From Armatimonadetes bacterium 55-13 (GTDB lineage Bacteria; Armatimonadota; Fimbriimonadia; Fimbriimonadales; Fimbriimonadaceae), in NCBI GenBank assembly GCA_001898035.1, contig MKRX01000006.1:3439-67438 (forward strand): 64,000 bases of DNA. The letters are read 5' to 3'. Below the pieces are notes generated by a model. The model did not search any database. It was not told where the DNA came from and worked only from the letters and a program-made list of their open reading frames with translations. A program made the position numbers and the translations under genes. Positions 1 to 60,974 of the stretch are shown here, piece after piece (the stretch's first letter is position 1; each line of letters begins with the position of its first letter).

Positions 1-531
1 ACGCTCCTGACCATTCCCGGTGCGGTGGATGTTTTCTTCCTTCCGGAGCGCGCCAAGCTCAGCTACGACCATGTTTCCAAATACGCCGTCGAGGGTCTGA
101 AGGCCGTCCTTTCCCTCGCCGCAGAATGCCAAGTCCGTCTCGGGATCGAAAACGTCTGGAACAAGTTCCTCCTGAGCCCCATGGAAATGGCCGCCTTCAT
201 TGACCAATTCGAAAGCCCCTGGATCGGCGCTTACGTCGATGTCGCCAATCTCATGCCCTTCGGCCATCCTGAACAGTGGCTCCGCATCCTCGGTAAGCGA
301 GTCGTCGGTATCCACTTCAAAGACTTCCGCCGCGCCGTCGGCACTATCGAAGGCTTCGTCGATCTTCTCGAAGGCGATGTGCCCTGGCCGGACGTCATGG
401 CCGCGATCGGCGAGATCGGCTATGACGGCCCCGTTGCCGCCGAAATGATCCCTGGTTATGCGCACTACCCCATGGTCCGCATCGCCAACACGTCCAATGC
501 CATGGATGCGATCTTAGGAAGGACCCAATGA
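1..531 (+). CDS. Sugar phosphate isomerase/epimerase (xylose isomerase-like TIM barrel), 5' partial
   Basis: The frame is already open at base 1, so the N-terminus lies outside the window and about 176 residues are visible. The fragment looks like the C-terminal half of an AP-endonuclease-2/xylose-isomerase-like TIM barrel: GIENVWN, AYVDVANL, GIHFKDF and AAEM sit where this family places its metal-binding Glu, Asp, His and Glu. Such proteins isomerise or epimerise sugars or inositols in the cytoplasm; the substrate cannot be read here. The stop overlaps the next gene's start by 4 bases (ATGA), so the two are translationally coupled, and MocA-type oxidoreductases are frequent partners of this family. 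Confidence 0.85.
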   Translation, partial: TLLTIPGAVDVFFLPERAKLSYDHVSKYAVEGLKAVLSLAAECQVRLGIENVWNKFLLSPMEMAAFIDQFESPWIGAYVDVANLMPFGHPEQWLRILGKRVVGIHFKDFRRAVGTIEGFVDLLEGDVPWPDVMAAIGEIGYDGPVAAEMIPGYAHYPMVRIANTSNAMDAILGRTQ

Positions 532-1667
532 GATTCGGAGTGATTGGCTGGGGCCTGCGCGCCCCCATCGCCAAGATCGCCCACCAGCCGGATAACGGCT
601 TGGAACTCGTCGGCCTCGCCGACCCGAGCGAAGAGGCTCAGGGCAAGTTCATCGAGTTCGTCGGAGACCGCGCTTTCACGACCAGCGACTACCGAGACCT
701 CCTCGACAAGGACCTCGACGCCATCTTCGTCCTTTCCCCAGACTGGCTGCACGAAGAGCAAGCCTGCACTATCCTCGAAGCGAAAATTCCTGTCTTCTTG
801 GAAAAGCCAATGGCCATCACCGTCGAAGGCTGCGACCGGGTCCTCGAAACCGCCGCTCGCACCGGGACCAAGCTCTATGTCGGCCACAACATGCGCCACT
901 TCGCCGCCGTGCGAAAGATGAAGCAGTGGATCGATCAAGGGCTGATCGGCGAAGTCAAAACCGCCTGGTGCCGCCACTTCGTCAGCTACGGTGGAGTCGC
1001 CTACTTCCGCGACTGGCATGCGGACCGCGAGAAGTCCACGGGCCTGCTGCTCCAAAAGGGTTCTCACGATATTGACATCCTCCACTGGCTCTGCGGCGGC
1101 TTCTCCAAAACCGTCAGCGCCATGGGCAAGCTGGCCGTGTATGGCGACATCGATGATCGCCAGGGTCCGGGCGAATCACACAAGATCGTCTTTGACAACA
1201 CCTGGCCCCCCACCAGCCTCAAGAACCTCTATCCCGTCGTCAATGTTGAAGACGTGAGCATGATGCTGATGGAGACAGAAAACGGAGTCCTCGCCAGCTA
1301 TCAGCAATGCCACTTCGCCCCGGATGCCTGGCGAAACTACACCATCATCGGCACCGAGGGTCGAATCGAGAATTTCGGCGACCAACCCGGCAACTGCACC
1401 ATCCGCCTCTGGGATCACGGACGCTATAAGTACGAAGCCCACGGCGATCTGGAATACCGAGTCCCTGAACTCAAGGGAACCCACGGCGGATCGGACGAGG
1501 CGATGTTCGAGGAGTTCCTCGCCTACTTGACCAAGGGAATCGAAACCGACACCACCCCCATCGCCGCCAGAATGAGCGTCGCCGCTGGGATCGCCGGTAC
1601 AGAATCTCTCCGATCCGGAGGGACTCCTGTTCCCGTCAAGCCTCTACCTGAACTGGCAAGCGCATAA
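528..1667 (+). CDS. Gfo/Idh/MocA family NAD(P)-dependent oxidoreductase
   Basis: 379 residues, the usual length for the family. The N-terminus MRFGVIGWGLR is a Rossmann nucleotide-binding loop (a G-W-G-x-R variant of GxGxxG), and FLEKPMAIT near residue 90 carries the family EKP motif that contacts cofactor and substrate. YVGHNMRH and GSHDIDILHW match the substrate-domain region with the catalytic His. The family oxidises or reduces sugars, inositols and related polyols with NAD(P). No signal peptide is present, so it is cytoplasmic. It overlaps the upstream sugar isomerase by 4 bases. The exact substrate is unknown. Confidence 0.9.
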   Translation: MRFGVIGWGLRAPIAKIAHQPDNGLELVGLADPSEEAQGKFIEFVGDRAFTTSDYRDLLDKDLDAIFVLSPDWLHEEQACTILEAKIPVFLEKPMAITVEGCDRVLETAARTGTKLYVGHNMRHFAAVRKMKQWIDQGLIGEVKTAWCRHFVSYGGVAYFRDWHADREKSTGLLLQKGSHDIDILHWLCGGFSKTVSAMGKLAVYGDIDDRQGPGESHKIVFDNTWPPTSLKNLYPVVNVEDVSMMLMETENGVLASYQQCHFAPDAWRNYTIIGTEGRIENFGDQPGNCTIRLWDHGRYKYEAHGDLEYRVPELKGTHGGSDEAMFEEFLAYLTKGIETDTTPIAARMSVAAGIAGTESLRSGGTPVPVKPLPELASA

Positions 1668-1673
1668 ATAGGA

Positions 1674-1697
1674 TGACTCCGGACTGAACCGGAGTCA
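1674..1697 (+). terminator. Hairpin downstream of the MocA-type gene
   Basis: A perfect 9-bp inverted repeat (TGACTCCGG / CCGGAGTCA, loop ACTGAA) begins a few bases after the stop codon. No T-run follows, so it may end transcription inefficiently or protect the 3' end. Confidence 0.5.
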
Positions 1698-1718
1698 CTC
1701 CCGCAGCCCCAAAAAAGC

Positions 1719-1724
1719 TAAGCT
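1719..1724 (+). promoter_or_regulatory. -10 element TAAGCT, leaderless-type promoter of the M24 peptidase gene
   Basis: TAAGCT fits TANNNT and ends 6 bases before the ATG at 1731. No Shine-Dalgarno is visible. Transcription starting the usual 6-7 bases after the -10 would begin at the start codon. Confidence 0.5.
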
Positions 1725-1730
1725 CTCTCC

Positions 1731-2999
1731 ATGCCTCAGCCAGACATCTCCGCCCGGCGAGCCAAGGCCGCCGAAGCTTGGGCGCTCTCGAATGAAGTGA
1801 TCCTCATTGGCGCTGGAACTCCCGTGCCAATCCCTGGAGGCGCCGACCAGTGCTTCCCCTACCAGCCTCATCCCGAGTACCGCTGGCTGACCGAAGGATT
1901 CCGCCCCGGCAGTGTCCTGGCCTTTGATCCGCAGGAAGGTTGGACGCATTTCACTCCTGCCGTTACCGAGGCCGAACGAGTCTGGGATGGTGTCTCCGTT
2001 GAACCCGATGGGCCGTATCTGGAAGACCTCGATCCCTGGCTCGCGAACCGTGCTGACCGCCCCATCGCCTGGCTGGGAGTTCCCAACACCGGCGCTCAGT
2101 CAAAAGAAGCCTTGCTCACAAGATCACATGAGCAGCTCACCCATGCTCGCCGTCCCAAGGATGAATTCGAGATCGGCCTCATGCGCCGGGCTGCGGCGGC
2201 TACCTTAGCCGGTCACCAACGCGCCGTGGAGGTGATTCGTCCGGGCGTTACCGAACGAGAAGTCCAGATCGAAATCGAGACCGCTTTCTTTAAGGCCGGA
2301 GCAACCAAGACAGGTTATTCCAGTATCGTGGGTGCCGGAACCAATTCCGCCGTTTTCCATTTCACGCCGGGTCAACGCCCCATCGCCCCTGGCGATTCCG
2401 TTCTGGTCGATGCGGGCGCCGAATACAACGGGTACGTCATCGATGTCACCCGAACCTATCCTGCCGACGGCAAGTTCGGCCCCGAACAGCAAGCCATTTA
2501 CGACGTCGTCTTGAACGCCGAGAAGAATGGCGTAGATCGGTGCCGAAACGGCGTGGAGTGGCTGGACCTTCATCGCGACTGTGCCGCCGACCTCGCCGCC
2601 GGGTTGATCGATCTCGGAATCCTGCGCGGTTCCGTCGAATCCGCCATCGAGACCGAAGCCATCGCCCTCTTCCTCCCTCACGGTATCGGCCACATGGTCG
2701 GGCTGGGGGTTCGAGACGCGAGCGGCACGGACCCTGGACGACTTGGGAACCGAAAGTCCGCCGGAGTGGGAGTTCGATGCGACATGATTTTGAAACCCGG
2801 CTACGTGATGACCGTAGAACCCGGCCTCTACTTCATCCCCGCCATCCTCAACGATCCCAAACGTCATGAGAAATATGGCGACGCCGTCAATTGGGAACTC
2901 GCCCAAAGATGGATTCCCTACGGAGGCATGAGAATCGAGGACAACGTGCTCGTCACCGAGGACGCGCCCATCAATCTAACCGCCGAGATTCCCAAATAG
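1731..2999 (+). CDS. M24 family metallopeptidase (aminopeptidase P / Xaa-Pro dipeptidase-like)
   Basis: 422 residues. An N-terminal creatinase-like domain is followed by a pita-bread catalytic domain from about residue 150. All five metal ligands are visible in order: Asp in VLVDAGAEYNG, Asp in VIDVTRTYP, His in LPHGIGHMVGLG, Glu in MTVEPGLYF and Glu in GGMRIEDNVLVT. The enzyme should be a dinuclear-metal cytoplasmic peptidase cleaving next to proline. There is no signal peptide. It is transcribed alone, convergent with the DUF1501 gene with one base between the stops. Family assignment is secure; the choice between aminopeptidase P and prolidase is not. Confidence 0.92.
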   Translation: MPQPDISARRAKAAEAWALSNEVILIGAGTPVPIPGGADQCFPYQPHPEYRWLTEGFRPGSVLAFDPQEGWTHFTPAVTEAERVWDGVSVEPDGPYLEDLDPWLANRADRPIAWLGVPNTGAQSKEALLTRSHEQLTHARRPKDEFEIGLMRRAAAATLAGHQRAVEVIRPGVTEREVQIEIETAFFKAGATKTGYSSIVGAGTNSAVFHFTPGQRPIAPGDSVLVDAGAEYNGYVIDVTRTYPADGKFGPEQQAIYDVVLNAEKNGVDRCRNGVEWLDLHRDCAADLAAGLIDLGILRGSVESAIETEAIALFLPHGIGHMVGLGVRDASGTDPGRLGNRKSAGVGVRCDMILKPGYVMTVEPGLYFIPAILNDPKRHEKYGDAVNWELAQRWIPYGGMRIEDNVLVTEDAPINLTAEIPK

Positions 3000-54822: not shown

Positions 54823-55799
54823 TCAGACTCCCACGAGTTCTTCCGTTTCCTCTGCTTCTTTTGCTTCTCGCTCTCGAACTTGCCTTTTCAAGAGATCCGA
54901 ATACAAACCCACCACGATCACCGCCATAAAACCGACAGGGAGATTCTTCTCGTGCAGCAATTGCTCAACCAAATTTACGATGGCCACCGCCGCTAAGAAC
55001 CAGTTCATCGAAAGAAGAAACGCTCGCCAGTGATCGCGAGGTCGCACCACCTTCATCGCGCTTCTACCGAGAAGCATCGAGTCGGACCTCAGGGGCAGGT
55101 CGTCGTTCCTATCCACCGGCTTGGGCAAAGTGGCCATTCCCTCTAGTCGGGAAATGTATTGTCTGATCGTTGCCTCAGGATCCTTTCCTGACTCTCGAAT
55201 TTCGATATTGACGCAGCCTTCAACTTCACTGTCTTTCCACCTGACGCGAAGAAGCGGAACGCGGTAACCCCAACCCACCCCTTCCACTACACCGACCGAA
55301 TCAATGCTTGTACAAGGTAGTTCAAACGATGAAGCCAAGCCCTTGAACTTCAGAAATCCGCCACCAATCGAAAGGCAGCCTCGGTCCCACATGCAATCGC
55401 CCCGCAATTCCGCCAGACCTGGACCATACGAGACACCCACGTAAATCCCATTCGGAACTGACGGCACAAGCGACTTACGATCTTCCCGATAGTTAGCTTC
55501 TATCGTCCACCTTCGAACCAAACCTCGTCCTTGCGAGAAGATTCCGAAAACGATCAAGGCCACCATCGCCAGCAGGGCGTAGGCCGCCATTCCTTGACGT
55601 GCCCAGCCAAGCCAGTCAATGATCGCGTATACCCAATGATCAGCGAGAAGATAAGAACCACAAATGCGACATAGAGAACTTGGCGACCCCAACCATAGCG
55701 GTGGGGAATGTTGCCATAGCGCGCAAGCCCACTCTCGGACTTGGATGCCGTGACCGCCCATATCTCCTCGAACTTACTTTCCATCGCTGCCGAATCCAT
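54823..55799 (-). pseudogene. Paralogue A of a tandem membrane-protein family, frameshifted
   Basis: The reading starts at the ATG at 55799 (MDSAAMESKFEEIWAV), 4 bases after the upstream paralogue's stop, and reaches the first membrane segment QVLYVAFVVLIFSLI. It then must shift by one base near 55633-55665 to continue as DHWVYAIIDWLGWARQG and the rest of the family sequence, ending at 54823. The second frame alone starts no earlier than a Met at 55590 with any plausibility. The shared soluble domain is present (YVGVSYGPGLAELRGD, MWDRGCLSIGGGFLKFKG), as are two C-terminal membrane helices. Either a decayed gene or an assembly error. Confidence 0.65.
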
Positions 55800-55803
55800 T
55801 GTA

Positions 55804-56811
55804 TTAAAGGGGACTATTGGACATCCCTTTCTCCTTGCTTCTCTGTCGTCGAACCGCAAGGGTATAGGGCAAGCGCAGTCCCACATGGAGAACAAGAGGC
55901 AAGATGGCAACGGCCGCCCCGATCAGCGGCGTCTCGGCGAATCCGAGCAAGAGTGCGCCGGAAACCCCTGCCACGAATGCAATCGCCAGCAGGTAGTCCA
56001 TCTTTCGCACCATGCCGGCAGGACTCTTTGCAAAGTTGAACTTCGATGAGGGAATCGGCGTTTTTGACTTGTCCAACTTCACTGTCGGATATTCCTGGCC
56101 CGCCTGAATCATGCCGTCTGCAAGAGCCTGTGTGCCTTTCCACCAGTTGCTCAGCGAATCCGTCTCTCTGAGTTCGAATTTAAGATGATTGGATTGGCCC
56201 GAGTCGTCAATCCACTCCGCCGCGATGATCGGGGTCCGGCTTCCCAACACCGTCACCGCCTCTGCTACCCGCAGGTGTCGGAGTTGGCAGGCAGGAATCT
56301 CAAACTGCGTGTCCATCCCCTTGAAGATGAGCCGCCCCTCTCTCAGCTGCAATGTTCCCATATCCCACATCGCATCCCCCAGATAGCGCCATAGTCCTGC
56401 AGAATAGGCAACACCAACAACTTGTCCGCCTTCTGAGTTCACCTCGAGTCTTCGCCGGACTCCTTGAAAGTCTTTCACCCGGTAGCCCGGTGCCACCCGC
56501 CCAATCTCCCAAAACAAGAAAGTCACATAAGCCAGCACGACCAACCAGGAGATCTCGACACTAATCAGTCTGATCAAGGCGATGGGACCTACCACTGTGA
56601 GCAGAATCCAAAGCAAGATTTTGCCGTGTGACTCGGATAGATCTCGGGCTGACTGTCCGCGAAAGGAAGATTTCATCTCCTTCAGGTCCGCAGGAAGGGA
56701 GCCCACATAGATGGTTTCGGCGGCCGAGAAAGGGAGTTTCGTCGACGAATTTGCTGCGACGACCTCTTGCCCCGTACGCTTGTCTTCTTCAGGCAGCAAA
56801 TCGTGGTTCAT
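55804..56811 (-). CDS. Paralogue B of a tandem membrane-protein family, unknown function
   Basis: 335 residues from the ATG at 56811, with AGGTGA just upstream formed by the end of the previous gene. Layout: about 65 polar residues, two membrane helices (ILLWILLTVVGPIALIRLIS; ISWLVVLAYVTFLFWEIG), a soluble domain of about 170 residues and two more helices (LLAIAFVAGVSGALLLGFAE). The soluble domain contains VGVAYSAGLWRYLGDAMWD, TLQLREGRLIFKGMDTQFEI and SNHLKFELRETDSLSNWW, a strand pattern like bacterial PH/GRAM domains. That fold is my inference. Paralogues lie on both sides in one operon. Confidence 0.75.
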   Translation of the reverse strand: MNHDLLPEEDKRTGQEVVAANSSTKLPFSAAETIYVGSLPADLKEMKSSFRGQSARDLSESHGKILLWILLTVVGPIALIRLISVEISWLVVLAYVTFLFWEIGRVAPGYRVKDFQGVRRRLEVNSEGGQVVGVAYSAGLWRYLGDAMWDMGTLQLREGRLIFKGMDTQFEIPACQLRHLRVAEAVTVLGSRTPIIAAEWIDDSGQSNHLKFELRETDSLSNWWKGTQALADGMIQAGQEYPTVKLDKSKTPIPSSKFNFAKSPAGMVRKMDYLLAIAFVAGVSGALLLGFAETPLIGAAVAILPLVLHVGLRLPYTLAVRRQRSKEKGMSNSPL

Positions 56812-56812
56812 A

Positions 56813-57811
56813 TCACCTAGCGCCCGTCCTTTGCCGCCTGAAAGCAGCCAACCGCCAGAGAATCTTACGGTAGATCCATCCTGCAATCCCGCTTACAAAT
56901 GGAATGACTAGCCAAATCAGAGGAAATTCCCTTCCCATCCAGCTGACCAAAACAATCCCAAGTCCAACCGCCAGTATCACAACCCCACATGCCATCCAAA
57001 GATCGAACCGACTCATTCTCGAAGCCTCTCCATGGCTGAACTCGAGGGAAGACGAACGAAAGGGTGCCTTCCATTCGTTCGTGATCCAGACCCGTTTCGC
57101 ATGCCCTTTCTTAGCCTCCAGCCCTCGGGCGAACGAGCGTGAATGCGCCCACCATTTAGAGAGAGAACTCCACTCGCGTAACTCCAGCAAAATTGACTGC
57201 GACTGACCATCTTCATCGAGCCAAGTCAGGGAAATGAGAGGAATCTCGCAATTCAACAAGGTGCGTGCCCGGATAACCTTGGCCGAAACCAATCGACCCA
57301 TCGGGAGAATAAACTTTCGTTCGTAACCGCGGAAAATCAATTCATCTTCTTCGACAGTGAGAAAGCCACGATCCCACATCGGATCGCCCCGGAAAGACCA
57401 GACACCTTCCGAATAAGCAATCCCAACGTAATACTCATCGGGCTGCCCTTCACCTAGGGCCTCCACGTCCCGAATCCTCGTCTCATCGAAGGTCCATCGA
57501 TGAAGCAACGCCGAGAATTTTCCGGTGACGTAAGTTGCCGTCCAACCGAGACCAACTAGAGGGACCAAGCCCACCAATCTAGCCCCGATCATGCAAAGCA
57601 ACCCTACGACAAACAAGCAAATTCCCACAAAACCTGTCGCCAGCATCGACCATATGGGGGCCGGAGGATGGGGGACCCCGCGAAAGGCTTGCAGGTCGTA
57701 ATTGGCAGGGAGCGGGGAAATCGCTAGCGTAGATTCAATTTGAATAGGAGTCTCAATCTCGGCAGAATTCAGGTTCGGAAGTTGCCTTTTTGTCGTCGCC
57801 ATGACACCCAT
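56813..57811 (-). CDS. Paralogue C of a tandem membrane-protein family, unknown function
   Basis: 332 residues from the ATG at 57811 (ATG at 57802 also possible). Same plan as paralogue B: polar N-terminus, two membrane helices (LATGFVGICLFVVGLLCMIG; LVPLVGLGWTATYVTG), soluble PH/GRAM-like domain (YVGIAYSEGVWSFRGDPMWD, FLTVEEDELIFRGYERKFIL, SQSILLELREWSSLSKWW), then two helices and a basic tail (FRRQRTGAR). Shared signature: Y-V-G-x-x-Y-x-x-G, G-D-x-M-W-D-x-G, L-x-F-x-G, L-E-L-R-E. First gene of the three-paralogue operon, divergent from an ArsR-type regulator that may control it. Confidence 0.75.
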   Translation of the reverse strand: MGVMATTKRQLPNLNSAEIETPIQIESTLAISPLPANYDLQAFRGVPHPPAPIWSMLATGFVGICLFVVGLLCMIGARLVGLVPLVGLGWTATYVTGKFSALLHRWTFDETRIRDVEALGEGQPDEYYVGIAYSEGVWSFRGDPMWDRGFLTVEEDELIFRGYERKFILPMGRLVSAKVIRARTLLNCEIPLISLTWLDEDGQSQSILLELREWSSLSKWWAHSRSFARGLEAKKGHAKRVWITNEWKAPFRSSSLEFSHGEASRMSRFDLWMACGVVILAVGLGIVLVSWMGREFPLIWLVIPFVSGIAGWIYRKILWRLAAFRRQRTGAR

Positions 57812-57820
57812 CCCCAATGA

Positions 57821-57919: not shown

Positions 57920-58026
57920 TTCTGTACTAAAACTATTAGAAGATCGATAGATCGGAAATCGAAATCTCATGGAATTGAATTACCAGATCTCACTGTGTCG
58001 CATTGACCTCGGAAGAAGGAGAAGGG

Positions 58027-58332
58027 ATGGCCGAACCAAAGAGCCTCGAAAGCGAGAATCAGATCACTCGAACCCTCATTGCGCTCGCCGATGAACAAAG
58101 GAGAAGAATTCTAGCCCTCGTAAGGGATCGTGAGTTAAAGCCGATCGAGATATCGGACCTTATGGGGGAGGATTGCCGATCCCTTTCCTATCACTTGAGA
58201 ATTCTGCGGGATTCGGAACTTGTCTCTGTCCGCCCCGAGGGCCGCGTTCACCACTACCGGCTTAATCATCAAGCCATTTGTCGCTTCGGCTTAAATGGCC
58301 TCATCGATCAAAAAGAAGAGGGACCGCGCTAG
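58027..58332 (+). CDS. ArsR-type winged-helix transcriptional regulator
   Basis: 101 residues from the ATG at 58027, which has a strong AGGAG six bases upstream; a start at 58003 is rejected. The winged helix covers LADEQRRRILALVRDRELKP, ISDLMGEDCRSLSYHLRILR (recognition helix) and LVSVRPEGRVHHYRLN (wing). No CVCxD-type metal site is seen, so it probably senses something other than arsenic-type metals, or acts through protein contacts. Divergent from the three-paralogue operon. The TAG stop lies in the loop of its own terminator hairpin. Confidence 0.88.
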   Translation: MAEPKSLESENQITRTLIALADEQRRRILALVRDRELKPIEISDLMGEDCRSLSYHLRILRDSELVSVRPEGRVHHYRLNHQAICRFGLNGLIDQKEEGPR

Positions 58333-58348: not shown

Positions 58349-60535
58349 TTAGCTTCCTTTTCCCTTGAATGGGTCGGTCGACCAGTCATCGACCTTCTTC
58401 TTCTCTTCTTTTGGCTTCTCCAACTTCGAATTGCCAATGGTGAGGGATCCAATCGACTTCAGCCTTGGCGTTCCGTAGACCCCGCGGGTAGTCAGCGGCT
58501 TGTAAGTTTGTCCTTTCAAGCTGCCGTAGATGGTTCGGACATCTTTCTGATCGGACTGCAGATTTCCGCTGATGGAGCGAGTGCTGCCCGCGACTGAGCG
58601 ATACTTCCTGACCGCATCAACCAAGTCGGAAGGCGAGGTTGAAACGACCCCAGTCCTGAAAGTCTGCGCTCCAGTTCTTGACCGTACAGGGCGGATGACC
58701 ACTTCGCCGTCGGCCTTGACCGTGTAGACGCCATCCTTGACCGTAACCACCACGTTCTTGCCGCTGATCTCCCAGGCGTCCCCAACCTGCACGCCGTCTC
58801 GAACGATGGTCGCCAAACTTTGGCCCGGCACACCCGCTCTCGCGACTTGACCATTTGCGGGGCGCGTCAGCGTCCGACCAACGGCTACGTTCTGAACGAT
58901 TGGGTCTTCTCGAACGATGTAGCTAGAGGGCTGATCGATCACGTAGGATTTGGCGTCTCCCCGAATCACCACCACATCTTGCGCCTTTGGTTCGGCGCGT
59001 TGGTTCACGACCACGTCCGCCGCGACCGTGCCTAGCGTACTCGCCTTCGTCTCAGTGACCGTGTTCGTCGTTACGATCTCGGTTTTCGGAATCGTCTTTC
59101 CCTTTTCGGCCTTGACCTTGTCGACTTTGATCCGCTGAAGGTCCTTGGACTCCACGATCTTGCCATCGATGACGACGATGTTATCCCTGATCGTCTTCAC
59201 TTTCTTTCCATCATTCGTGCGGATCTCGATGACTCGAGTCTTTTTGCCATCCTTGCCTGGCTTGACTTGCCAGATCACGATATTTCCGGCAGTTTTCTGA
59301 TCCGGCTTGGGATGTGCCAGTTCTACGGTGTTGCCATTCTTGACCTCTCGAATGACGACGTCTCTGCTCACCTTCTGCCCCTTCTTCGGCTTGACAAGCT
59401 TCCACGTCTTACCGTCCTTTGATCGCTCAACGATGATCACGTCCTCGGACTTGGTCACGATCTTCTTATCGTTTTCAACTTTCGGCTTCTCCTTTTGCGG
59501 TAAGTCCTCGAAAGGCAAGGCGGCCGCCACCAAGTTATAAGCGGGCAACATGCTCATGGTCAGAAGTGCTAGCGCGGCAGTAGCCGTGCGGCGCCAGAAT
59601 GTCGGTTTCGAGTTGAAATGTTTCATAGCTTCTAATCTCCGGTGGATCGTTCGATAGGACTCCGCCATCGGCAGAGCGCCCGGGGCAAATCGGGGACGGG
59701 CGATAACCGTGGCCCGCAAAAGCATGTCGGCATAGGTCTGAATCGGTACCCCCGCCAGTCGGGAAGCGTCTTGATCGGTTGCCGATTCATGGTCGAGTCG
59801 CGAGCATCGCGCCGCGATCCAAACCATCGGGTTAAAGAAAAAGAGTGACTGAACCAAGGACGCCAGCCCAAACCACCAGAGGTCTCGCCGCGCGATGTGC
59901 GCTACCTCATGCGCGATCATGAGACGCTGGTCGCTCAGGCTTCCCTGCGTGAGAGAACTCTCCGGCAACACGATGGAATAGCCTTTGCCGCCCACCAACA
60001 TGGCCGTAGTCGCATCGGAGGAGGCCAGCAGACGCGGACGACGTCGCAAGTTGGCGCGACGGCAAAGCTCGTCCAAAGCCTCTTGCAGATCGGGATCGTT
60101 CACCTCGGTTGAGCACCGGACCAGACGCATATTTCTGACCGTTCCCCACGCGGCATATCCGCAGATCGCAAAAGCACCCATCAACCACATCGCAATCAAC
60201 GGATCGGGAGTAGCGGCAGGCGCGTTGATCGGCGTTTCCGTAATCTCGGCATCTTCAACTGGCGTGGGATTCGACGTCAATCTCGTTGACTCTTCGATGT
60301 AGTAGAAGTCGGACGGCATTGCCTTTGAATTCGCGACAGGAGCCGCTCCCGGCAAGACCGGCAGACTAATCACCGCAAAGGGCAAGAGACTAAGCAAGGG
60401 CTTCAAAAATGCCAAACGCCACATCCAGACCTTTGCATTGGCTGGAATCGACGGCACAAGGCGGAAAATGCCCCAGAGTGCCAAAAAGAGAATGCCGCTC
60501 TGGATCGCGGTCAGCCAGAGAGTTTCCTTAAGCAT
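58349..60535 (-). CDS. M56 family (BlaR1-like) membrane metallopeptidase with a novel repeat-rich C-terminal domain
   Basis: 728 residues. Membrane helices near 10-27, 40-63, 112-131 and 315-340 enclose a cytoplasmic zinc peptidase loop with HEVAH (209-213) and the third ligand Glu250 in DHESATD. This matches BlaR1/MecR1, which cleave the BlaI repressor upon signal. BlaR1 ends in a penicillin-binding sensor; here residues about 345-728 are instead Lys/Val-rich with imperfect repeats (DVIIVERSKDGKTWKLV, DVVIREVKNGNTVELA, NIVIWQVKPGKDGKKTR, NIVVIDGKIV) and later Ser/Thr-rich sequence. The ligand is thus unknown. Overlaps blaI by 8 bases. Confidence 0.9.
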   Translation of the reverse strand: MLKETLWLTAIQSGILFLALWGIFRLVPSIPANAKVWMWRLAFLKPLLSLLPFAVISLPVLPGAAPVANSKAMPSDFYYIEESTRLTSNPTPVEDAEITETPINAPAATPDPLIAMWLMGAFAICGYAAWGTVRNMRLVRCSTEVNDPDLQEALDELCRRANLRRRPRLLASSDATTAMLVGGKGYSIVLPESSLTQGSLSDQRLMIAHEVAHIARRDLWWFGLASLVQSLFFFNPMVWIAARCSRLDHESATDQDASRLAGVPIQTYADMLLRATVIARPRFAPGALPMAESYRTIHRRLEAMKHFNSKPTFWRRTATAALALLTMSMLPAYNLVAAALPFEDLPQKEKPKVENDKKIVTKSEDVIIVERSKDGKTWKLVKPKKGQKVSRDVVIREVKNGNTVELAHPKPDQKTAGNIVIWQVKPGKDGKKTRVIEIRTNDGKKVKTIRDNIVVIDGKIVESKDLQRIKVDKVKAEKGKTIPKTEIVTTNTVTETKASTLGTVAADVVVNQRAEPKAQDVVVIRGDAKSYVIDQPSSYIVREDPIVQNVAVGRTLTRPANGQVARAGVPGQSLATIVRDGVQVGDAWEISGKNVVVTVKDGVYTVKADGEVVIRPVRSRTGAQTFRTGVVSTSPSDLVDAVRKYRSVAGSTRSISGNLQSDQKDVRTIYGSLKGQTYKPLTTRGVYGTPRLKSIGSLTIGNSKLEKPKEEKKKVDDWSTDPFKGKGS

Positions 60536-60914
60536 CTCTCCCCTCCTCCAAGCTCTTCACCAATCGGCGAAGGTCTTCAAGCTGCCGCTCATCCACTTCC
60601 GCCCGGCTTCCCAAATAAGCCACCAGCGGCGCAACCGATCCCCCCAAAACCGACTGCACGAAATCGTCCACAAAATTCTCAAAGAGCGTTCCCTTCGTCT
60701 CAGACGGGAAGTAGCGGAACACCCCGTCCACCTTTTCCCGATCCAAAAAGCCCTTCTTGCGGAGCCGTTCCATCATGTTCAATGCCGTATTCCGGGTCTG
60801 CCCCTTGGTTTCCGTCAGGTAGTCCCCCACCTCCGTCACCGTCGCCTTACCCCGCTCGGCAATAAACCGAAGGACCTCCACTTCCGCTCGACCTACACTT
60901 GGTTTCTTGTTCAT
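60528..60914 (-). CDS. blaI: BlaI/MecI/CopY family transcriptional repressor
   Basis: 128 residues, normal for the family. The winged helix covers VGRAEVEVLRFIAERGKATV, GDYLTETKGQTRNTALNMME (recognition helix) and LRKKGFLDREKVDGVFRYFP, followed by a C-terminal dimerisation helix region. The repressor should bind the two identical operators just upstream and be cut by the M56 peptidase encoded with it. The target genes in addition to its own operon are unknown; no beta-lactamase of class A lies nearby. Symbol denotes the family, not proven beta-lactam control. Confidence 0.92.
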   Translation of the reverse strand: MNKKPSVGRAEVEVLRFIAERGKATVTEVGDYLTETKGQTRNTALNMMERLRKKGFLDREKVDGVFRYFPSETKGTLFENFVDDFVQSVLGGSVAPLVAYLGSRAEVDERQLEDLRRLVKSLEEGRDA

Positions 60915-60920
60915 ACTCTT

Positions 60921-60936
60921 AACGACAATTGTCGTT
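60921..60936. promoter_or_regulatory. BlaI operator, proximal
   Basis: Perfect 16-bp dyad AACGACA-AT-TGTCGTT, 6 bases upstream of the blaI start, within the leader. Confidence 0.85.
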
Positions 60937-60944
60937 CCATCCCT

Positions 60945-60973
60945 AGTATAGGAAACAAAACGACAAATGTCGT
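60945..60973 (-). promoter_or_regulatory. Promoter of the blaI-M56 operon
   Basis: On the minus strand TATACT (60950-60945) is 17 bp downstream of ACGACA (60973-60968). The weak -35 lies inside the distal operator, so repressor binding would block RNA polymerase. Confidence 0.55.
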
Positions 60974-60974
60974 T
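60959..60974. promoter_or_regulatory. BlaI operator, distal
   Basis: Perfect dyad AACGACA-AA-TGTCGTT, same half-sites as the proximal copy, centre-to-centre distance 38 bp. Confidence 0.85.

Follow-up and report, generated by a model that had tools for sequence, protein, structure and literature searches.

The closest described counterparts of the locus analyzed here are the BlaR1-BlaI and MecR1-MecI systems of Staphylococcus aureus and Bacillus licheniformis and the BlaI proteins of Clostridium thermocellum. In the excerpted text of PMC9834060, BlaR1 is described as having four membrane helices and a re-entrant loop with both ends outside, its self-cleavage takes place at Ser283-Phe284, and S. 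aureus BlaI is cut at Asn101-Phe102. The C. thermocellum repressors BlaI_1845 and BlaI_0696 have regulons of one and three operons, according to the excerpted text of PMC8457756. Among the matches listed from the open-licence literature, BlaR1 is treated as a drug sensor. We analyzed a BlaR1-type gene pair in a 64,000-nucleotide stretch of DNA from Armatimonadetes bacterium 55-13 (the window, in whose numbering the features are given); the outer module of its protease is probably a sensor.

A BlaR1-type gene pair and its zinc site

A preliminary description, made from the letters of the window, had placed a 728-residue reading frame at 58349-60535 and credited its product with the membrane plan and zinc site of BlaR1; coordinates and length hold, and the frame lies on the minus strand. 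The product, P0001, is an M56 (BlaR1-type) membrane metalloprotease, and the start of its gene overlaps by 8 bases the gene of a 128-residue BlaI-type repressor, P0002 (60528-60914, minus strand). The features of the pair are as follows.

58349..60535, minus strand: M56 (BlaR1-type) membrane metalloprotease, P0001; PF05569 over residues 5-303, E 1.1e-34
60528..60914, minus strand: BlaI-type repressor, P0002; PF03965 (Penicillinase_R), E 3.9e-21
60200..60340, minus strand: first extracytoplasmic loop, about residues 66-112, equivalent of BlaR1 EL1; placed by hydropathy, its role by analogy with BlaR1 (PMC9834060, excerpted text)
59897..59911, minus strand: HEVAH zinc/catalytic motif, residues 209-213; H209, E210 and H213 invariant in 19/19
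59774..59788, minus strand: ExxxD motif, residues 250-254, with third zinc ligand E250 and D254; invariant in 19/19, equivalence to BlaR1 E242/D246 via the excerpted text of PMC9834060
59654..59659, minus strand: predicted self-cleavage site Ser293-Tyr294, at the position of BlaR1 Ser283-Phe284
60615..60620, minus strand: predicted BlaI cut Ala99-Tyr100, equated by eye with S. aureus BlaI Asn101-Phe102

Five hydrophobic segments of P0001 (residues 6-24, 47-65, 113-131, 224-242, and 322-340, centered at about 15, 56, 122, 233, and 331) fit the BlaR1 membrane plan as judged by hydropathy, reproducing the pattern of four helices and a re-entrant loop and so bearing out the topology that had been proposed. 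The generic BlaR1 model of NCBIfam matched residues 87-337 (E 4.1e-19), its 68.3 bits falling short of the 400-bit cut-off of the BlaR1 equivalog NF000326, and PDB sequences gave only two matches up to E 1, both of them BlaR1, over residues 186-311 (E 0.012 and 0.021). GC content by codon position (0.56/0.50/0.67 in the core, 0.49/0.31/0.71 in residues 345-500, and 0.59/0.46/0.68 in residues 501-728) is consistent with P0001 being coding DNA over its whole length, the tail included. Beside the pair, an open reading frame at 58003-58332 (plus strand), convergent with the M56 gene, resembles by eye an ArsR-like winged-helix regulator, and three frames in a row at 54823-57817 (minus strand; 312, 360, and 334 aa) look, again by eye, like paralogous membrane proteins with a common soluble core.

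Eight residues, H209, E210, H213, D218, E250, D254, Y268, and R300, are invariant in all of 19 aligned M56 proteins (the row of L044 starts about 40 residues too early). Their positions agree with those of the zinc ligands, base, and supporting residues of BlaR1, given as H201, E202, H205, D210, E242, D246, Y261, and R294 in the excerpted text of PMC9834060. The ligands are thus kept in 19/19, loss in orthologues was not seen, and the zinc site is retained as had been claimed. A BlaI gene is present in the stretch of each of the 18 aligned homologues. Together with the adjoining PF05569 and PF03965 matches, the intact zinc site supports, at the level of sequence, the earlier proposal of a one-step M56-BlaI circuit.

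By analogy with BlaR1, P0001 would cleave both itself and BlaI. The P1' position of the predicted self-cut (residue 294) is Tyr or Phe in 17/19 M56 proteins, and Thr in L049 and L051. The corresponding position in BlaI is Tyr or Phe in 25/31 rows (three rows duplicate another row or P0002), yet in just 3/8 of the BlaI proteins of this genome, which supply five of the six rows with another residue.

The outer tail and the domain it probably replaced

Beyond the last hydrophobic segment, P0001 continues for 384 residues, close to the roughly 380 that had been estimated for its outer part.

58352..59503, minus strand: extracytoplasmic tail, residues 345-728 (384 aa), after hydrophobic segment 322-340; no family or PDB match
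59255..59443, minus strand: repeat block, residues 365-427, with a 26-residue period and weaker copies further on; from self-alignment and motif count

The tail gave no match of its own in Pfam, NCBIfam, or PDB sequences, in agreement with the view that it holds no known ligand-binding domain; a CD1375-like match over residues 326-354 was discounted at 13.4 bits against a cut-off of 27. Three or four imperfect repeats of roughly 30 residues had been described in it. The best gapped self-alignment of the tail scores 122, against a mean of 55 and a maximum of 89 in 60 composition-keeping shuffles, and the best ungapped pair joins residues 367-401 with 393-427 at an offset of 26 (score 68), so there is more repetition than chance would give, but it is less regular than described, with a period of 26 and only two occurrences of the proposed motif, slightly widened, at 392 and 418. 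This 26-residue repeat is significant but irregular: it is clearest in residues 367-427, a loose four-residue form of the motif occurs seven times between residues 365 and 597, and three excised repeat units agree pairwise at 5 to 8 of 27 positions. The end of the tail is rich in Val, Ser, and Thr, as had been noted (V 14.9, S 8.8, and T 7.9 percent in residues 501-728), and also in Gly (10.1 percent); Lys makes up 20.5 percent of residues 345-500. Structure prediction, which the preliminary description had suggested, was carried out with AlphaFold2 without homologues and gave no confident fold for tail or repeat block (pLDDT 32.9 and 44.1); both low-confidence models show strands in the repeat block.

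The same tail was also looked for in other M56 proteins, again as had been suggested. A search of the genome with the tail alone returned only itself and a match at E 0.218 that contains a stop, and comparison with 18 related tails yielded nothing beyond composition except a low-complexity match to that of L015 (score 71; the highest of 100 shuffles was 61), which we do not credit. Even in a congener the tail is not conserved by alignment: the ortholog L011 is 61 percent identical to P0001 over residues 1-348, where the alignment ends, and the two tails score 64 against each other, with 2/100 shuffles as high.

This lack of clear similarity to the congener, the low-confidence models, and the Lys content of residues 345-500 would suit a tail that is no more than a stalk, under little constraint and in part disordered, which remained when an STN domain was lost, its repeats without a sensing role and the switch constitutive or decaying. 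Against such a stalk stand an uninterrupted frame of 384 residues whose GC by codon position is coding-like, the significant 26-residue repeat, the catalytic residues kept in 19/19 proteins, and an operator pair (described below) that is retained in the congener. The last two make the switch as a whole look selected, and we consider a decaying stalk quite unlikely.

A tree of 36 membrane parts suggests which domain the tail may have replaced. P0001 and L011 form a pair in it (support 96/87) inside a clade of six (99/98; nesting nodes 98/95 and 99/98) whose other members, L039, L044, L045, and L046, all carry STN domains, according to our own profile, which they helped to seed, and to Pfam, above cut-off in two of them. 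L039 is the sister gene of P0001 in the same genome, on contig C1; L068 is labelled STN in the tree at a profile E of only 0.008. STN-like domains are found in secretins and TonB receptors. The membrane part of P0001 thus shares its ancestry with an M56-STN sister group, and the one to three STN domains of that group were not detected in P0001, which had no match to a profile built from eight segments of five sister proteins. Because the other four members of the clade carry STN, the tail most simply replaced an STN, and the fewest steps on the tree would be one loss or replacement on the branch to P0001 and L011. The earlier statement that the tail stands in place of a penicillin sensor therefore holds insofar as no such sensor was found, but what was replaced was most simply an STN and not directly a penicillin sensor.

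The same evidence bears on whether P0001 could be a penicillin-sensing BlaR1 whose sensor has diverged past recognition. The generic BlaR1 match to residues 87-337 would fit this, but it stops at the last membrane helix, with 68 bits against a cut-off of 400; no penicillin-binding match was found in the tail (Pfam, PDB), nor any such domain by Pfam in the six of the eight M56 proteins of the genome that were scanned (P0001 and, of the seven others, L039, L067, L004, L005, and L006); and the nearest relatives outside the genus carry STN. We regard a diverged penicillin sensor as highly improbable.

Operators, sister circuits, and relatives

The predicted blaI promoter is framed by two AACGACAWTTGTCGTT palindromes, perfect 16-mers 38 bases apart, that are retained as a pair in L011.

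60959..60974, no strand: predicted operator 1, AACGACATTTGTCGTT read on the minus strand, overlapping the -35; related pairs in relatives
60921..60936, no strand: predicted operator 2, AACGACAATTGTCGTT, between the -10 and the start codon; related pairs in relatives
60945..60973, minus strand: predicted promoter ACGACA-17-TATACT, with its -35 in the left half of operator 1; consensus match, one found against a mean of 0.2 in shuffles

The staphylococcal BlaI half-site is TACA; the operator half-site here differs from that of the BlaR1-BlaI and MecR1-MecI systems in being GACA. The sequence TACANNTGTA is the core of the CopY family in the abstract of PMC7253601. Following the suggestion that genome-wide copies of the operator be used to define the regulon, we found the exact 14-base core ACGACAWWTGTCGT at the two operators and nowhere else in the genome. 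With up to two mismatches it occurs at 43 places, compared with 15 for the reversed pattern, so weaker operators may exist; two of the 43 are the operators themselves, two have one mismatch (both inside ORFs), and 39 have two. Six of these 39 were viewed (L073, L074, L075, L083, and the places of L101 and L104), and each falls within an ORF, near its start in L074 and L083. The pattern CGACANNTGTCG occurs at eight places (three for the reversed control), namely the two operators and six sites inside ORFs of 307-853 codons. The predicted regulon accordingly consists mainly of the circuit's own operon, and with hardly any further strong operator detected, induction would chiefly yield the switch itself.

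In this genome eight M56 proteins pass the curated cut-off and a ninth matches weakly; the eight BlaI proteins pair with the former 8/8 by position and strand, with BlaI first. Only one of the 28 pairs of tails is related (L005 was read in part), leaving seven unrelated-looking tails among the eight circuits. The related pair, L007 and L008, scores 140 against a shuffle maximum of 59 and belongs to neighboring BlaI-M56 pairs on contig C6 near 124-127 kb, which points to a duplicated circuit. In the six of the other seven pairs whose upstream stretch was read (all but L122), no AACGACAWTTGTCGTT palindrome precedes blaI. The stretch upstream at L125 has TTGTCTACAGCATTAGACAA, and that of the sister operon on contig C1 (L126) has the related GACACTTGTC and GACAAGTGTC. 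Within QTRNTALNMMERLRKKGF the sister BlaI differs from P0002 by one residue, making cross-regulation of the two possible. Elsewhere on contig C6, near 567210, the stretch L072 holds a Cas1-like ORF (229-1254, minus strand) beside an ORF (1474-2973, minus strand) whose product, judged by eye, is similar to type V CRISPR effectors and has a RuvC motif.

Of 85 family genomes searched with the membrane part, 20 gave a total of 40 M56 matches (E up to 1e-15). We surveyed 37 tails, 32 from these matches and five from further M56 proteins of this genome; two tailless or short proteins (L052, L013) were left out, as were L054, L055, L058, L113, L118, and L119, for which the pattern gave no usable ORF (the G105 protein of L054 is L129). 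Our STN profile detected 10/37 tails with an iE under 1e-9, the five seed proteins included, while the best of 740 shuffled tails reached 0.045. Pfam STN was above cut-off in L039, L044, and L064 and below it in L045, L046, and L049, and was not reported for L050, L061, and L062 at E 0.01. Secretin_N was found by Pfam in two tails (L065, L110), the Secretin family PF00263 over 23 residues of the L060 tail (E 1.1e-7), a PQQ propeller in L051, and carboxypeptidase-regulatory domains in L005 and L117. By eye, the tails of L047 and L048 are Gly-rich and those of L114, L056, and L111 coiled. We also observed by eye two copies of a motif resembling the secretin signature in L060, and a likeness of the L004, L057, and L116 tails to the head of DUF1559-type pseudopilins, for which there was no Pfam match at E 0.01. 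With so many different tails among its relatives, this switch appears to have been adapted to other signals.

Two copies of GACANNTGTC in tandem, separated by 8 to 35 bases, occur at 17 places in 15/85 family genomes (none for the reversed pattern), and 10/17 lie directly before a BlaI-M56 pair. In three genera (G081, G094, and G105; L128, L129, and L130) the tandem operator is followed first by the gene of a secreted-looking protein (225-300 residues, its start resembling a signal peptide), next by BlaI, and last by a tailless M56 protein, which ends 13-17 residues after a fixed reference point; in ten others it ends 190-412 residues after that point. The combination of a leading secreted gene and a tailless M56 thus occurs in 3/3 against 0/10 operons. 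In G006 and G017 the tandem site precedes a separate gene, located after the pair, for a secreted-looking protein (a PD40 protein in G006); the pair itself has a single site at its start, and the M56 tail is 316 or 345 residues long. These two cases speak against a simple fused-or-separate rule. Since the operons are related, neither the Fisher probability of 0.0035 for 3/3 against 0/10 nor the value of about 0.022, computed by hand with these two counted as separate-gene cases (3/5 against 0/10), is a true probability. The tandem site of G108 is cut off by a contig end, and that of G083 (GACANNTGTC twice; L094, 1501-1533) precedes what by eye is a Y-family polymerase gene in a stretch with no BlaI, perhaps the site of another regulator with a similar target.

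PF07813 (LTXXQ) matched L092 (E 0.0054), L134 (0.0045), and L096 (0.048), all below the curated cut-off, and did not match L097, giving a hint of LTXXQ likeness among the secreted proteins encoded by separate genes and in the tail that is fused to M56 in L134. We rejected the stronger idea that these form one LTXXQ (Spy-like) domain: a three-sequence profile scored P0001 at 0.0089 and L134 at 0.067, against 0.031 for the best shuffle, and so fails to tell signal from noise.

These operons bear on the possibility that the tail is the output of the circuit, a surface- or matrix-exposed structural piece dosed by it, with the membrane part or the first outer loop reading the signal. A regulon predicted to be mainly the operon itself would agree with such a role, and the Gly-rich (L047, L048), coiled (L114, L056, L111), and propeller (L051) tails, like the PD40 protein of G006, look structural and not ligand-binding. 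STN and Secretin_N, however, are known as interaction domains, and related tails carry them (10/37 and 2/37, respectively); moreover, the three operons with the same kind of operators and a tailless M56 indicate that a circuit of this kind can do without a tail. We therefore judge an output role unlikely.

Proposed mechanism and comparison with known systems

The reading to which we incline, with some confidence, is that P0001 and P0002 form an autoregulated BlaR1-type proteolytic switch in which the tail is a lineage-specific sensor module that replaced an STN. It draws on the genes, catalytic residues, operators, and repeat and on the replacement of the tail in the tree, all as read from sequence; from these we infer the cleavages, BlaI binding, the sensing role, a ligand, and autoregulation as a working event. 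At rest, a BlaI dimer would occupy the two palindromes of its own promoter, one overlapping the -35 and the other immediately following the -10. A signal from outside, which may be a ligand or envelope stress, would change the tail, and this change, relayed by the first outer loop and the membrane helices, would free the cytosolic zinc site. P0001 would then cut itself near Ser293-Tyr294 and BlaI near Ala99-Tyr100, derepressing the operon and yielding more protease, with more tail outside.

More tentatively, BlaI-M56 may in this family be a general chassis with exchangeable outer modules, the sensor being fused as a tail (repeats, STN, Secretin_N, propeller, or other) or supplied as a separate secreted protein from the same operon when the M56 is tailless; STN and secretin tails would read the state of secretin or TonB machines, and the P0001 tail would be a sensor acquired recently. 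If this broader proposal, which we regard as less than likely, is true, it would amount to cell-surface signaling without a sigma factor. Open-licence PMC literature returned nothing on M56 with STN or on BlaI with BlaR in Armatimonadetes, and among the matches listed none concerned an exchanged outer part, eight circuits per genome, or a tailless M56 with a secreted partner. Judged against those listed matches, the parts are known, and these three features of their arrangement are new. An M56 family with many unrelated tails, domains of secretins among them, and with tailless variants accompanied by a separate secreted protein would let the activation of M56 proteases be probed directly by means of tail deletions or chimeras. 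It would also draw attention to a form of envelope signaling that family-name annotation now assigns to antibiotic resistance.

With BlaR1-BlaI and MecR1-MecI of S. aureus and B. licheniformis, as described in the excerpted text of PMC9834060, the present pair shares an M56 protease with HExxH and ExxxD motifs, an outer C-terminal part, a BlaI-type gene, and predicted cuts with an aromatic P1' residue. It differs from them in that P0001 has no match to a penicillin-binding (class-D-like) sensor in Pfam, NCBIfam, or PDB sequences, and in that no resistance-gene target was found for its circuit. STN-bearing TonB-dependent transducers that work with anti-sigma factors offer a second comparison, since domains like the STN of the sister M56 proteins relay periplasmic signals there (PMC11637429, excerpted text); here the output would be BlaI cut by a protease on the same chain and not a sigma factor, and P0001 itself has no detectable STN. 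The C. thermocellum repressors BlaI_1845 and BlaI_0696 differ in their motif (GTCTAT / GACTAT), and hypothetical proteins have been proposed as the response there, but they share paired inverted repeats upstream of their own operon and a BlaR1 partner, and in BlaI_1845 the restriction of a regulon with paired dyads to its own operon has a parallel (PMC8457756, excerpted text).
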